Positions 35,270 through 40,456 of a DNA stretch of 64,000 bases are shown here, in pieces; the first letter of the stretch is position 1; the number at the start of each line of letters is the position of its first letter. The notes beneath the pieces are model-generated. The model was not told the origin of the DNA and ran no database searches. It worked only from the letters and a program-made list of their open reading frames with translations. The translations under genes were made by a program, and so were the position numbers. The DNA lies in the NCBI RefSeq assembly GCF_018156225.1, contig NZ_JAGTAR010000012.1, forward strand, positions 1 through 64,000. Reading direction: 5' to 3'. Source of the stretch: Carboxylicivirga sediminis. Lineage in GTDB: Bacteria; Bacteroidota; Bacteroidia; Bacteroidales; Marinilabiliaceae.

Positions 35270-36577
35270 CTACTTACGTCCGGCGTGGCCCAGCAGGATT
35301 TTTACCAAATCACCATAGTCAGCCGAGGCACTTTCCACTTGCTTTTGACCATCTAAAAATGCTTTGAGGCGTTCTGGTTGTTCCACTTTCTGCTGAATCA
35401 CCTCCTCTACCGTTTCAGGGAATTTAGCCGGGTGAGCAGTTGCCAGGAAAATACCGTAAGCATTGGTGTCCAATTTATCTTTGATAGCATGATAGCCAAT
35501 GGCTCCGTGCGGATCAAGTACATAACCAGACGTCTTGAATACCGAACGAATGGTTGAATAAATTGTATCATTATCCACCTTCACACCTTCTACAACCGCT
35601 TTAATATCCGATAACTTATGATGGAACAACTCCTGTATCCGAACAAAGTTACTTGGATCACCTACATCCATGGCATTGGCCGGTGTAGCAATGCTCGGGG
35701 CAGGTTGATAATTACCCGTATTCAGATATTTAGGAACAATATCGTTACAGTTGGTAGCAGCTACAAAACGTTTAATAGGCAAGCCCATCTTGTAAGCAAT
35801 TAATCCGGCAGTTAAATTACCGAAATTACCACTGGGTACACACAACTTAACTTCTTTGCGCCCTTGCTTAAGCGCCTGTGCATAAGCTGAAAAATAATAA
35901 ACCATCTGTGGCAGAAAACGCGCCAGGTTAATGGAGTTGGCCGAGGTCAGCTGCATACTTTTCTTAAGTTCATCATCCATGAAAGCAGTTTTAACCAGCC
36001 GCTGGCAGTCGTCAAAGGTGCCATCCACCTCTATGGCTGTAATATTTTGGCCCAGGGTGGTGAATTGCTTTTCCTGGACATCCGACACCAACCCTTTGGG
36101 ATAAAGTACAAATACATTGACCCCTTCTACTCCGAGGAAGCCATTGGCAACAGCACTGCCCGTATCACCCGATGTAGCCACCAACACATTTACCGCTGCA
36201 CCTGTGTCTTTGGTAAAACGCGCCATAACCCGTGCCAGGAAACGGGCACCTATATCTTTAAAGGCTAAGGTAGGCCCATGAAATAATTCCAATGAACCAA
36301 TTCTATCGGTGACCGGCACCAACGGAATGGGAAAATTAAATGCTTCTGTTGTTAGTTGCCTGAACTCGTCTTCGGGAATCTCAGGACAAAAGAAGTGCTT
36401 TAAGGTTTGGAAGCCTATTTCGCCCAATGACATATCTGGCAAAGCTTTCCAAAAATCATCCGGTAAAACCGGGATTAACTCTGGCATAAACAGGCCTTTA
36501 TCAGCTGCCAAACCATTAATGACGGCCCTCTTTAAATCACTCTTAACAGATGGATTATTTGTACTGTAATATTGCAT
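35270..36577 (-). CDS. thrC: Threonine synthase
   Basis: A 435-residue PLP enzyme converting O-phosphohomoserine to threonine. Lys107 in FHGPTLAFKDIGARF is the Schiff-base lysine; the phosphate-binding VATSGDTGSAVANGFLG and the substrate-side LCVPSGNFGNLTAGLIA are intact. It is the last gene of thrA-(kinase)-thrC, with a 3-bp gap to the kinase gene, so all three are expected on one transcript controlled by the upstream leader. Confidence 0.96.
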   Translation of the reverse strand: MQYYSTNNPSVKSDLKRAVINGLAADKGLFMPELIPVLPDDFWKALPDMSLGEIGFQTLKHFFCPEIPEDEFRQLTTEAFNFPIPLVPVTDRIGSLELFHGPTLAFKDIGARFLARVMARFTKDTGAAVNVLVATSGDTGSAVANGFLGVEGVNVFVLYPKGLVSDVQEKQFTTLGQNITAIEVDGTFDDCQRLVKTAFMDDELKKSMQLTSANSINLARFLPQMVYYFSAYAQALKQGRKEVKLCVPSGNFGNLTAGLIAYKMGLPIKRFVAATNCNDIVPKYLNTGNYQPAPSIATPANAMDVGDPSNFVRIQELFHHKLSDIKAVVEGVKVDNDTIYSTIRSVFKTSGYVLDPHGAIGYHAIKDKLDTNAYGIFLATAHPAKFPETVEEVIQQKVEQPERLKAFLDGQKQVESASADYGDLVKILLGHAGRK

Positions 36578-36580
36578 TGT

Positions 36581-37792
36581 TTACTTTTTTCCGGATAATA
36601 ATACCTGCATAAATTCTGTTTGATCGATAAAACCAAATACACCATTGCTTACCGATTCTTCATTATATTCCTTCACCTTATCGGGGGCCACCCCAGGCCG
36701 GTAGATCATAAAAGGTACGTGATCCCGCGTGTGTGTCCTTATCTCGCATGGTGTTGGATGATCGGGCAGAAAAGCCACACTCACATCTTCGCCATCCTTA
36801 CTTAGATATTCAAGCACCAGCTTCACCACTTTCTGATCAATATCCTCCAGCGTTTTTATTTTCAACTCCACATCACCTTCATGACCAGCTTCATCAGGTG
36901 CTTCAATATGCAGAAACACATAGTCGGCCCCCTCCTTTAATGCTTTTAGAGCAGCTTGTGCTTTGCCCGTATAGTTAGTTGTATACAAGCCAGTTGCTCC
37001 TTCTACAAAAACGGATTGCAGTCCTCCCAGCTGGCCTAATCCATGAATCAGATCAACCGCCGATATCACCACTCCCTGCTCAATGCCATATAGCTCCTTC
37101 ATGGTGGGCATGGCTGGCTTGAAACCAGGCGACCAGGGCCATATCATATTGGCAACGGGCAATCCTTTAGCGCGCCTGCGCACATTTACCGGATGCTCAC
37201 TCAACAGTTCATTGGAAGCAAACATTAACTGGCGCAGCAGTTTAACGGTATCATTACTTTCAAAGGGCTTGGGTAGGATTGTTTCAACAAACTCGCCAGG
37301 TACATCGTGAGGTGGCGTACATTCTACGCCATTTTTGCCACCCTTTATCACCATCACATGACGATAACTTACGCCGGCATAAAATTTAACCCGCTCAGTA
37401 CCCAAATACTCATTCAAGGCATTGATTAATTCCCGCGCTTCTTCCGTTTCAATATGGCCGGCAGAATGGTTGAGCAGCTTAGCTGCTTCCACGGTCACCA
37501 GATTACAGCGAAACACCAGATCCGTGGGTCCTATATCAATCCCAAGAGCTGCCGCTTCCAACACGCCTCGTCCCTGATAGTATCTTTCGGCATCATAGCC
37601 CATAATAGTCATATTGGCCACTTCGCTGCCCGGATGTAATGAATCAGGCACCGTTTTCAGGTAACCGCAACCCGATTTCTCACATAGCTGATCGATATGA
37701 GGTGTATTAGCCACCATCATCGGCGTTTTGCCATTCAGGCGTTCGATTGGTTGATCGGCAAAGCCATCTGCCAGTATTACAAGATGTTTCAT
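36581..37792 (-). CDS. Phosphoglycerate-mutase-like protein, proposed homoserine kinase
   Basis: A 403-residue member of the archaeal-type cofactor-independent phosphoglycerate mutase (alkaline-phosphatase superfamily) group: MKHLVILADGFADQPIERLN, LHPGSEVANMTIMGYDAERY with the catalytic serine, RCNLVTV, HIEAPDEAGHEGD and LPDHPTPCEIRTHTRDHVPF supply the metal-site Asp/His residues. In Bacteroidetes and some Deltaproteobacteria a form of this enzyme sits between thrA and thrC, where no GHMP homoserine kinase exists, and has been proposed to phosphorylate homoserine. Context here is exactly that (19-bp and 3-bp gaps), so the threonine role is favoured over glycolysis. Confidence 0.88.
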   Translation of the reverse strand: MKHLVILADGFADQPIERLNGKTPMMVANTPHIDQLCEKSGCGYLKTVPDSLHPGSEVANMTIMGYDAERYYQGRGVLEAAALGIDIGPTDLVFRCNLVTVEAAKLLNHSAGHIETEEARELINALNEYLGTERVKFYAGVSYRHVMVIKGGKNGVECTPPHDVPGEFVETILPKPFESNDTVKLLRQLMFASNELLSEHPVNVRRRAKGLPVANMIWPWSPGFKPAMPTMKELYGIEQGVVISAVDLIHGLGQLGGLQSVFVEGATGLYTTNYTGKAQAALKALKEGADYVFLHIEAPDEAGHEGDVELKIKTLEDIDQKVVKLVLEYLSKDGEDVSVAFLPDHPTPCEIRTHTRDHVPFMIYRPGVAPDKVKEYNEESVSNGVFGFIDQTEFMQVLLSGKK

Positions 37793-37811: not shown

Positions 37812-40232
37812 TTAAAGGTTCACTACTTTAATAATATCGGCAAAAACACCGGCAGCTGTCACGTCTGCTCCGGCCCCGTAGCCTTTTATCTCCATTGGAT
37901 GCTCGTAATAATAATCTGATCGGAGAATTACTTTATTATTGCTATCCGCCAAATTATAAAACGGATGATGGGCATCCACTTCAATAAATCCCACCCGGGC
38001 ACGCCCCTCTTTGAGTGAGGCCGCATAGCGAATGACTTTCCCTTTTGCGTCAGCTTCGGCGCGCATCGCTTCAAAGGTAGCATCGTATGCCTTCAAACGC
38101 TCCAGAAACCCTTCCACAGCCTCATCTGTAAAATACTCGGCAGGCACAAATGGCTTGATCTCTACGTGTTGCTCCTCCAGGGCATATTCACTTTCACGTG
38201 CCAAAATCAGCAGTTTACGCAGCACATCTGTTCCTTTCAGATCAATACGTGGATCAGGCTCACTATAGCCCAGTTCTTTCGCCTCGAGTACTACTTCTGA
38301 CAGGGGCCGATCTGCGCTGACATTATTGACGATATAATTCAAGGTGCCCGACAGCACTGCTTCCAGTTGCAGGATGCGATCACCACTCTGCACCATACCA
38401 TTAATGGTGTTAATGATTGGTAAGCCAGCTCCCACATTGGTTTCAAACAGGTACTTCACCCCTTTCTGACGAGCTGTTTTCTTCAGTTGTTCATAACGTG
38501 CATAACTTGATGAGCCAGCTATCTTATTGGCTGTCACCACAGATACATTGTTTTCCAGTAATCGTTGGTATTTTTCAGCCACCAGTGCACTGGCTGTACA
38601 ATCTACAAATACACTGTTTGAGTGGTTGTTGGCAATGATTTGCTCCACAAACTGGTCTATTGTTCCCGGACTAGCCTCCTGAAGCACTTCAAGGGCAGAT
38701 TCCAATTCCAGTCCCCTATCGTTGAATATCATTTGCTTTGAGTTGGCCAAACCAGCTAAACGTATGCTTAGATGCTCGGTTTTTAATAAGCGCTCTGATT
38801 GACGTGTGATTTTCTGCAGCAGGTTCTTACCAACTGTACCAACACCCACCAGATACAGGTGAATAGCCTGATAAGCACTCAGGAAGAACGACTCATGCAC
38901 CACATTGAGGCACTTTCTCAGGTCGCGTGCATGGATTACAAATGAAATATTCAGTTCTGAAGCCCCCTGGGCAATAGCATATATATTAATACCATTGCGC
39001 CCTATGTCACTAAATAATTTGCCCGACACACCTGGTGCATGTTTCATGCCCTCTCCAACAATGGCCACCACTGCCATATCTTTATCAATAGAAACTCCAT
39101 TGATCTCGCGGCGGGCAATCTCTTTATCAAATTCTTTTATTAAGGCCAACCTGGCCACTTCTACATCCTCATTGGCCAGTACCACACTAATACTGCTTTC
39201 GCTGGATGCCTGTGAGATAAGGATAATATTTATATTATGGCTGGCTAGTGCACTAAACATGCGCATAGAAATACCAGTGATCCCAATCATACCATTACCC
39301 TGTAGCGTCAATAATGCCACATCTTTTATAGACGACAGACCTTTAACGCGCTGTTGTTCATCCTTCTGATCATCAATTAAAGTGCCTCTTGCCGAAGCAT
39401 TAAATGTATTTTTAACTTTAATAGGGATTTGCTTTTGTAAAGCCGGAATGATAGTTGGCGGGTAAATCACCTTAGCACCAAAATGCGACAGTTCCATCGC
39501 TTCTGCATAACTCAGATGTTCAATGCAGTAGGCCCGTTTTATTACACGCGGATCGGCCGACATGAATCCATCAACATCCGTCCATATTTCCAGCGCTTTC
39601 GCCTCCAGACCTGCAGCCAGTAAAGCCGCCGAATAGTCTGAACCTCCCCTTCCAAGCGTTGTGTTTTCGCCATCGGCATTGGCTGCTATAAAACCAGGAA
39701 AGACATTCACCTTGCTTAGCGAAAATTTTAGCTCGCCAATGGCTTGCATGGTTTCATTGTATTTAACATGGTGACCTTTGCCATTGGCTTCAGTCATAAT
39801 AAAACGACGACTGTCAAACAGTTTGGCACCATCAATAAGCTGACTTAAAAAAACAGATGACAGGCGCTCTCCAACACCCACTATTGTATCGTAACTTTTG
39901 GTGCTTAATTCACGCGTTAAGTAAACCCCTTTGAGCACTTGCCTTAACTCTTGCCATACATCCTGACACGAGCTATGAAGATCTGCCTGACCATTGTCTT
40001 CAAATAATTCCTGTGCGATGGTGGCATGTTTCTTAACTACCTCTTCAATTATGTTCTGGTAGTCCTCGCCCCTTACCGCTGTATTGGCAGCCAACACTAG
40101 CCTATCGGTAATTCCTCCGACGGCTGAAACGACAACAACAACAGGTTCTGACTGGCTCTTGACAATCGCTTGTACCTGACGGATAGCTGAGGCACTGCCC
40201 ATAGATGTACCACCAAATTTTAAAACTTTCAT
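37812..40232 (-). CDS. thrA: Bifunctional aspartate kinase / homoserine dehydrogenase
   Basis: An 806-residue fusion performing steps 1 and 3 of threonine/methionine synthesis. The N-terminal kinase has MKVLKFGGTSMGSASAIRQV and TTLGRGGSDYSAALLA; two ACT regulatory modules occupy ~310-455 (LTLQGNGMIGITGISMRMFS; VAIVGEGMKHAPGVSGKLF). The dehydrogenase half begins near 465 with the Rossmann loop LVGVGTVGKNLLQKI, then VDCTASALVAEKYQ and LEAVLSGTLNYIVNNVS, ending at the catalytic ELGYSEPDPRIDLKGTD region. First gene of the operon; threonine feedback is expected via the ACT domains and attenuation via the leader peptide upstream. Confidence 0.97.
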   Translation of the reverse strand: MKVLKFGGTSMGSASAIRQVQAIVKSQSEPVVVVVSAVGGITDRLVLAANTAVRGEDYQNIIEEVVKKHATIAQELFEDNGQADLHSSCQDVWQELRQVLKGVYLTRELSTKSYDTIVGVGERLSSVFLSQLIDGAKLFDSRRFIMTEANGKGHHVKYNETMQAIGELKFSLSKVNVFPGFIAANADGENTTLGRGGSDYSAALLAAGLEAKALEIWTDVDGFMSADPRVIKRAYCIEHLSYAEAMELSHFGAKVIYPPTIIPALQKQIPIKVKNTFNASARGTLIDDQKDEQQRVKGLSSIKDVALLTLQGNGMIGITGISMRMFSALASHNINIILISQASSESSISVVLANEDVEVARLALIKEFDKEIARREINGVSIDKDMAVVAIVGEGMKHAPGVSGKLFSDIGRNGINIYAIAQGASELNISFVIHARDLRKCLNVVHESFFLSAYQAIHLYLVGVGTVGKNLLQKITRQSERLLKTEHLSIRLAGLANSKQMIFNDRGLELESALEVLQEASPGTIDQFVEQIIANNHSNSVFVDCTASALVAEKYQRLLENNVSVVTANKIAGSSSYARYEQLKKTARQKGVKYLFETNVGAGLPIINTINGMVQSGDRILQLEAVLSGTLNYIVNNVSADRPLSEVVLEAKELGYSEPDPRIDLKGTDVLRKLLILARESEYALEEQHVEIKPFVPAEYFTDEAVEGFLERLKAYDATFEAMRAEADAKGKVIRYAASLKEGRARVGFIEVDAHHPFYNLADSNNKVILRSDYYYEHPMEIKGYGAGADVTAAGVFADIIKVVNL

Positions 40233-40302
40233 ATAGTGAGCTTTACAAAATCAAAATAATCAATGCCTAACCACAACAGATTAGGTTGAAAAACTTATAA
40301 AT

Positions 40303-40422
40303 AAAAAAATGAAATGACCGGATGAAATAATAAGCTATACCCCCCAAGGGGTAGTTGTAGAAGTAGTAATATTTGTAATGATATAATTCATCTTATTTTT
40401 CGGTCACGAATGAGTGATTTCA
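40303..40422 (-). promoter_or_regulatory. Candidate attenuator RNA of the threonine operon
   Basis: Around the leader peptide, three complementary segments nest: 40310-40315 with 40417-40422 (TGAAAT/ATTTCA), and 40315-40326 (plus strand TGACCGGATGAA) with 40401-40406 plus 40387-40392. The 3' arm is followed on the minus strand by seven Ts (40303-40309). The 5' arm includes the leader's start codon. A separate small hairpin TACCCC/GGGGTA overlaps the last leader codons. How ribosome position switches these structures is not resolved here. Confidence 0.55.
40335..40391 (-). CDS. Threonine-operon leader peptide (18 aa)
   Basis: An 18-codon frame encoding MNYIITNITTSTTTPWGV, with six Thr and three Ile. 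It ends 103 bp before thrA and starts about 35 bp after a good -7 element. Enrichment for the end products of the pathway (Thr, and Ile made from it) is the signature of ribosome-mediated attenuation, as in the enterobacterial thr leader. Its sequence is unrelated in detail to the E. coli one. It is too short for routine gene callers. Confidence 0.8.
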   Translation of the reverse strand: MNYIITNITTSTTTPWGV

Positions 40423-40425
40423 TTG

Positions 40426-40456
40426 CAAAAATAGGGATATATAATTTAAATCAAAA
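40426..40456 (-). promoter_or_regulatory. Promoter of the threonine operon
   Basis: Minus strand: TTTTGA at 40451-40456 and TATTTTTG at 40426-40433 (fits TAnnTTTG) with an 18-bp gap, typical of the Bacteroidetes primary sigma factor. Transcription would start near 40418, ahead of the leader peptide. Confidence 0.65.

Follow-up and report, generated by a model that had tools for sequence, protein, structure and literature searches.

Threonine operon locus

We analyzed a 64,000-nucleotide (nt) stretch of a Carboxylicivirga sediminis contig (the window), focusing on a short leader frame rich in threonine (Thr) and isoleucine (Ile) upstream of the threonine operon gene thrA. The host genome is 5.8 Mb in size, and the closest named relative of ThrA is that of Carboxylicivirga mesophila (Bacteroidota), at 95% identity. 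The leader lies in a 284-nt gap between an mtnA-like gene and thrA:

41548-40517, minus strand: mtnA-like gene
40335..40391, minus strand: leader frame MNYIITNITTSTTTPWGV, 18 codons with six Thr and three Ile (ATG at 40391, TAG at 40337-40335)
37812..40232, minus strand: thrA, fused aspartokinase-homoserine dehydrogenase
36581..37792, minus strand: phosphoglycerate-mutase-type protein, presumably the operon's homoserine kinase
35270..36577, minus strand: thrC, threonine synthase

An earlier annotation made from the letters alone, here called the sequence-only reading, had described this frame between a promoter and thrA, and we confirmed it. No ATG frame of 8 to 35 codons with six Thr appeared in dinucleotide shuffles of the gap (0/3000), and of the 1104 short ATG frames of the window, MNYIITNITTSTTTPWGV alone combines six or more Thr with a Thr content of 30% or higher.

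We compared the locus with regions upstream of thrA (loci are cited by L numbers) from searches of 71 genomes of the family, 148 of the order, and 198 of the phylum, which gave 60, 49, and 88 usable regions (197 in total). Only full-length thrA matches were used, and partial ones were left out. L008 (86 nt upstream; one of 61 full-length family loci) and L038 and L100 (of 51 order loci) were omitted. The phylum set consists of 89 of 147 other matches listed, a nonrandom choice, less L198. A Thr-rich frame, defined as at least four Thr in 10 codons with a start and a stop, preceded thrA in 28/60 family, 16/49 order, and 38/88 phylum regions, compared with 2.0, 2.0, and 3.4% of shuffles, respectively.

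A hairpin at the leader stop codon

The most widely kept part of the element is a hairpin, P2, which was absent from the sequence-only reading:

40339..40352, minus strand: P2, ACCCC-UUGG-GGGGU, located at the final Thr codon, immediately ahead of the stop (predicted probability 0.97)

Searching with the pattern ACCCC-N(2-6)-GGGG, we found P2 in 72 of the 197 upstream regions (34 in the family, 15 in the order, and 23 in the phylum set). Hairpins with different letters occupy its place in other lineages, for example ACGGG-GUAA-CCCGU or ACAACCC-GUUA-GGGUUGU. What is kept is the fold; the letters and the peptide end are not. Two other interpretations of this segment were discarded. The peptide end TPWGV was rejected as a conserved unit because the codons past TP vary or are stops and other hairpins substitute for P2. 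Reuse of P2 as a module elsewhere in the genome was ruled out, as CCCCTNNGGGGG occurs once.

With P2 as an anchor, the 12 preceding codons of the 72 P2 leaders, window included, hold in-frame Thr at a mean of 5.15 in the genus (n = 13), 4.24 in the rest of the family (n = 21), and 4.26 outside it (n = 38), and 0 to 0.46 Thr in the other two frames. No leader has an in-frame stop in this interval (0/72), and all four Thr codons are used among them. In a clade alignment of 15 leaders, from which L015 was left out, the leader varies in length by 15 or 18 columns, both divisible by three. Together, the in-frame Thr enrichment, the lack of stops, and the length steps of three indicate, at the level of sequence comparison, that the leader is translated and that its Thr content is under selection. 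The alignment of relatives that the sequence-only reading had recommended gave the picture it anticipated, in-frame Thr runs with variable flanks. Its refuting case, relatives without a Thr-rich frame, was not found in the genus, where all 13 leaders have the hairpin and 11/13 carry at least four Thr within the 12 codons that precede it; the wider family is less uniform (see below). Ile, a possible second signal, is enriched in frame more clearly outside the family (2.08 in frame versus 0.32 and 0.71 in the others); in the genus the counts (2.62 in frame versus 2.23 in another frame) give no clear signal. As a side observation, the L005 leader carries 12 consecutive Thr through a ACAACTACAAC-like repeat expansion.

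A covariance model of the element matched 23 of the 71 family genomes, once each, every time directly before thrA. Among 296 class genomes it gave four matches, two of which (L218 and L220) are not before thrA; L220 has an ordinary terminator.

The sequence following P2 is also patterned. Outside the family, the letters AUAU start 10 to 14 nt past P2 in 22/38 leaders (other 5-nt bins hold 0 to 7), and offsets 6 to 14 are poor in G (0 to 5%). The same AUAU spacing is found in 10/16 clade leaders and 5/18 of the rest of the family; these AUAU counts include related, nonindependent species, and the window has AUUUC where relatives have AUAUC. After the different-letter hairpins, AUAU begins 7 to 11 nt on in 7/13. 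The P2-AUAU distance resembles that of hairpin-type polymerase pauses, which suggests that P2 may act in pausing. P2 also occupies the position that the pause hairpin (1:2) of a classical attenuator has at the leader end, with regular spacing to AUAU. No antiterminator partner for the P2 3' arm was seen by eye or in masked folds, although no systematic search was made. By eye, CGCCCC recurs downstream of the leader in L125, L163, and L168, where it could pair with the GGGGUGA of the stop hairpin as a possible antiterminator.

A long-range helix over the leader start codon

The second structure is a long-range helix, P1, which joins the leader start region to sequence past the leader stop and is followed by a T-run:

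40401..40407, minus strand: P1b 5' arm GUGACCG (from RNAalifold and pair counts; predicted probability 0.95)
40314..40320, minus strand: P1b 3' arm CGGUCAU (from RNAalifold, pair counts, and fold)
40387..40392, minus strand: P1c 5' arm GAUGAA, spanning the leader start codon (from RNAalifold and pair counts)
40321..40326, minus strand: P1c 3' arm UUCAUC (from RNAalifold, pair counts, and fold)
40303..40309, minus strand: seven-T run, the proposed termination site (from T-runs after P1 in the clade)

The sequence-only reading had pointed to complementary segments around the leader and a seven-T run. A check of the letters confirmed the segments (40407-40401 with 40320-40314, and 40392-40387 with 40326-40321), and the run is present at 40309-40303. 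It had also noted correctly that the leader start codon is covered by the 5' arm, whose pairing is preserved from one genus to another.

Given the 15 clade leaders, RNAalifold returned, unprompted, P2 and a long-range helix of GACC..GAUGAU (leader start) with AUCAUC.GGUC (past the stop). When this structure was imposed on the alignment, 92.5% of 240 cells were paired, compared with 32 to 53% with the partner slid; the structure was read from the same sequences, so the slide control is biased in its favor. Changes on both sides occurred at five P1 pairs, matched by 0/500 shuffles, and the number of further P1 pair types was unremarkable (73/500 shuffles). Three of the five double changes are neighboring, in L018, and preserve pairing. 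The start region's partner lies about eight columns nearer P2 in five leaders of neighboring genera. In L015, of the same genus, the leader is degenerate (it has few Thr, and a stop codon falls in the loop of the hairpin); P1 pairing persists there at a moved position, the 3' arm standing beside P2, where UACGACC still matches GGUCGUA by eye.

The best independent test of P1 was to swap 3' segments between species and compare own with foreign pairing. A leader's own segment paired better in the family (p = 0.00005, 34 leaders), also with the window's genus left out (p = 0.00015, 21 leaders) and with one species per genus (five draws of 10 leaders each, p between 0.0003 and 0.0086). When P1-like pairing was tested leader by leader in all 72, the combined p values were 0.0099 and 0.0022, driven mainly by the family; 8 and 9 of the 72 reached p of 0.05 or less singly, and the window itself gave 0.085 and 0.015. 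We also considered an outer extension of P1, 40424-40417 with 40315-40308, which is perfect in the window. It was rejected as a general feature because it shows no coevolution in the 15 leaders (p = 0.59) and starts before the transcript start, which we presume from the Bacteroidota promoter consensus to lie near 40420.

T-runs of at least six within 35 nt past P1 are present in 11/15 clade leaders, compared with 1.56 expected, and A-runs in 0/15.

Proposed mechanism

Based on these comparisons, we consider it very probable that thrA is controlled by threonine through its leader peptide. For the particular role of P1, we are about evenly divided on a leader-peptide switch responding to charged threonyl-tRNA, with P1 and the T-run as its off state; the switching step is one that we infer. 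With enough threonine, the ribosome would reach the stop and depart, P2 would fold, and P1 would close. Closed P1 would also hide the leader start codon, and the T-run would be where polymerase terminates. Under threonine shortage, one ribosome held on the Thr codons and another waiting or starting behind it would fill the loop and cover the start region, and with P1 blocked by the occupied leader, transcription would continue into thrA. More tentatively, P2 might pause polymerase about 10 to 12 nt downstream and let the first ribosome keep pace.

Masking calculations helped define the signal. In the ribosome-free fold of the 118-nt leader, the probabilities are 0.95 for P1b, 0.97 for P2, and 0.19 for P1c. 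Holding a ribosome with Thr 12 to 14 in its A site abolished P2 and left P1b. P1b was abolished when a ribosome occupied the start codon, or when a second ribosome stood behind the held one. These results favor occupancy of the leader, next ribosome included, as the signal, and they rule out the masking of P1 by one stalled ribosome as the entire switch.

Several observations weigh against this switch. A single ribosome at Thr 6 to 14 leaves P1b, so a second ribosome or steric effects must be invoked. P1c has a probability of just 0.19 in the window sequence alone, and the single-sequence fold is not unusually stable (z of -1.24; 28/200 shuffles at least as good). The structural evidence is comparative. 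Of the other two double changes in P1, one (L016) is an alignment shift and probably due to chance, and one is common to the window and its 95% sibling L003. Leader by leader, P1-like pairing was mostly no better than shuffles (median p of 0.37 and 0.38 for the 72), and the segment swap gave p = 0.32 for the 38 leaders outside the family. A phylum-wide P1 was rejected on these medians and this swap result; as judged from sequence, P1 is real within the family and demonstrated no further than that. With no coevolution in the outer extension beside the T-run, P1b and the T-run stand apart in many relatives. Outside the window's clade, P1 with a T-run is absent, and in 56 other leaders T-runs within 150 nt (20) were in no clear excess over A-runs (14). 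Against the comparison of leaders itself, 26/60 family loci lack both the Thr-rich frame and the hairpin, and the L015 frame has few Thr.

Alternative explanations

Possible, although we would not call it probable, is threonine leader-peptide control without intrinsic termination, with P2 and P1 acting via Rho, polymerase pausing, or the stability or translation of the thrA message. We scanned for strong terminators by a strict criterion (stem of at least six, at least three G-C pairs, and at least six T in eight). None was found after the thr leader in the genus (0/13), and 3 of all 72 P2-type leaders had one, leaving 13/13 and 69/72 without. An AU-tolerant scan was at chance in the genus (1/13, 1.1 expected) and gave 4/21 (1.2 expected) in the rest of the family and 3/38 (2.0 expected) outside it. 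A short AGGC-UUUU-like hairpin with a U-run in L163 was missed by the strict scan. The fixed-distance AUAU outside the family resembles a pause layout, and the confinement of P1 with a T-run to the window's clade also fits control by these other routes. The T-runs after P1 in that clade speak for termination there. Also against this reading are the position of the thrA start, 82 nt beyond P1 in the window and uncovered by it, and the lack, by eye, of a C-rich stretch after the leader of the kind typical of Rho loading.

The genus scan also bears on the enterobacterial thr attenuator, whose logic the sequence-only reading had seen here. The part that stands is a Thr leader peptide before thrA; the structural side is not supported, as no genus member has a strong terminator. 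A classical attenuator, in which antiterminator and terminator hairpins compete, would have to use a weaker site, and the looser window scan gave one candidate:

40266..40285, minus strand: P3, CCTAATCTGTTGTGGTTAGG, a weak hairpin resembling a terminator (tail CATTGATTAT)

We consider this version improbable. P3 is the sole terminator-like site in the scan, compared with 0.2 in shuffles; hairpins were seen by eye at the aligned position in several species of the window's subclade; and thr leaders of some other Bacteroidota are classical (see below). P3 is a candidate alternative weak terminator, which also counts against P1 as the off state. However, three of its seven pairs are G-C, and its tail CATTGATTAT has no T-run. 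In seven species (L011-L014 and L016-L018) the leader is too close to thrA to leave room for P3, and no downstream complement to the P2 3' side was seen by eye.

It is more improbable still that the RNA binds a protein or metabolite, with the Thr frame incidental, or that the small peptide is itself the product. P2 is steadier than the Thr count (52 of the 72 P2 leaders have at least four Thr in the preceding 12 codons), and L015 retains P2 with few Thr. Against these readings stand Thr enrichment specific to one frame, the codons after TP, which vary or are stops, the other hairpins and peptide ends that replace P2, and the lack of a matching Rfam family. That the Thr-rich frame and complementary segments are functionless and arose by chance, as the unremarkable folding energy and the 26/60 family loci without frame and hairpin might suggest, is scarcely credible given the shuffles, the frame control, the pair counts, and the constant place before thrA.

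Comparison with other leaders

We compared the element with known amino acid leaders. As in the enterobacterial thr operon (thrL; Rfam Thr_leader), a Thr/Ile-rich leader stands between the promoter and thrA of a threonine operon. In contrast to thrL, there is no GC-rich terminator hairpin with a U-run; a stop-codon hairpin and a start-codon helix are present instead, and there is no Rfam match. At the gathering score, the window matched two tRNAs only, with no T-box and no other curated riboswitch, and Thr_leader was absent from the eight matches at E values up to 10, with none at the gathering score.

The genus carries other, textbook-like leaders. Leaders with at least five His in 10 codons precede hisG in 14/14 genus genomes (L221-L234), all 14 with a strong terminator between leader stop and gene. 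Leaders with at least five of Ile, Leu, and Val in 10 codons (MKFNLSLILNIIIILVVIIIRT and alike) precede ilvD in 14/14 (L235-L248), again with strong terminators in 14/14. They share with the thr leader a peptide rich in the controlled amino acid and differ from it in the strong terminator, present in 14/14 each versus 0/13 thr leaders. Thus, leader-peptide control is in use in this genus. In the L225 his leader, GGAUGAGC was seen by eye opposite the terminator's GCUUAUCC, the classical shape.

Thr leaders of a classical kind occur elsewhere in the phylum. Among 21 Thr-rich loci without the strict P2 pattern, we counted terminators in 18 (L169, L196, and L101 were left out; the L101 frame resembles upstream coding sequence). 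Thirteen of these have another stop-codon hairpin by eye, and 1 of the 13 has a terminator. The remaining five (L141, L154, L174, L180, and L190) have the Thr leader before thrA but, unlike the window, a strong terminator (5/5) and no stop-codon hairpin. These counts indicate that stop-codon hairpin and strong terminator are seldom found together, the sorting into the two types having been done after the sequences were seen. In L154, GGAGGAAG past the Thr codons could, by eye, pair with the terminator's CTTCCTCC.

Tentatively, Bacteroidota may have two mostly exclusive kinds of thr leader, a classical kind and a pause-hairpin kind that includes the window and is read by occupancy. The second kind would have no strong terminator and a tetraloop hairpin at the leader stop, with arms and loop (UNNG or GNRA) varying by lineage. 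A G-poor AU stretch 10 to 12 nt past the hairpin would pause polymerase and couple it to the ribosome. In the window's family, the off state would be the helix closing over the leader's own start codon. The signal would be ribosome occupancy and queueing on the leader, not a choice between two hairpins.

Within the same phylum, leader attenuation has been proposed for amino acid operons of Flavobacterium psychrophilum (PMC9723704); the text consulted mentions neither a threonine leader nor a fold of the P1/P2 kind. Short open reading frames within long leaders are described in B. thetaiotaomicron (PMC7366714). The Actinobacteria LEU element and leaders without obvious terminators (PMC1262725) are similar in having a control-codon leader, a conserved structure, and no clear terminator. 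The base stem of the LEU element overlaps the regulated gene's initiation site, whereas P1 pairs the leader's own start region; its 3' arm ends at 40314 and thrA starts at 40232, so no such overlap occurs here. The Corynebacterium ilvB-II upstream open reading frame motif (PMC10272879) is likewise a case in which a leader frame accounts for a conserved RNA motif, in another phylum and for other amino acids. We found no description of a thr leader or a P1/P2 fold in Bacteroidota in the open-licence literature. What is new is not leader-peptide control, which is known, but an RNA layout that differs from the textbook amino acid switch.

A textbook attenuator chooses between terminator and antiterminator. 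In this genus the his and ilv leaders are textbook-like, and the thr leader lacks a strong terminator hairpin. Having both sorts in one genus allows a natural direct comparison of the ways in which leader translation can be read out. If the active part is P1 with the T-run, or a pause at P2, the region of the start codon would itself sense ribosome load. The stop-codon hairpin also provides a handle for leader peptides that terminator-based searches would miss.

Promoter region

The promoter that the sequence-only reading had placed before the leader was confirmed as a Bacteroidota-type promoter:

40456-40452 and 40433-40426, minus strand: TTTTG and TATTTTTG, separated by an 18-nt spacer; pattern kept in relatives

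Within the genus and the two genera nearest to it, 15/16 leaders have a matching arrangement, compared with 1.6% of mononucleotide shuffles. By eye, this promoter seems to lie inside the mtnA terminator (40482-40426), flanked by AAAATAGGG and CCCTATTTT, such that the terminator's 3' arm and T-run double as the TATTTTTG box. A similar arrangement was seen by eye in L002-L007 and L009.
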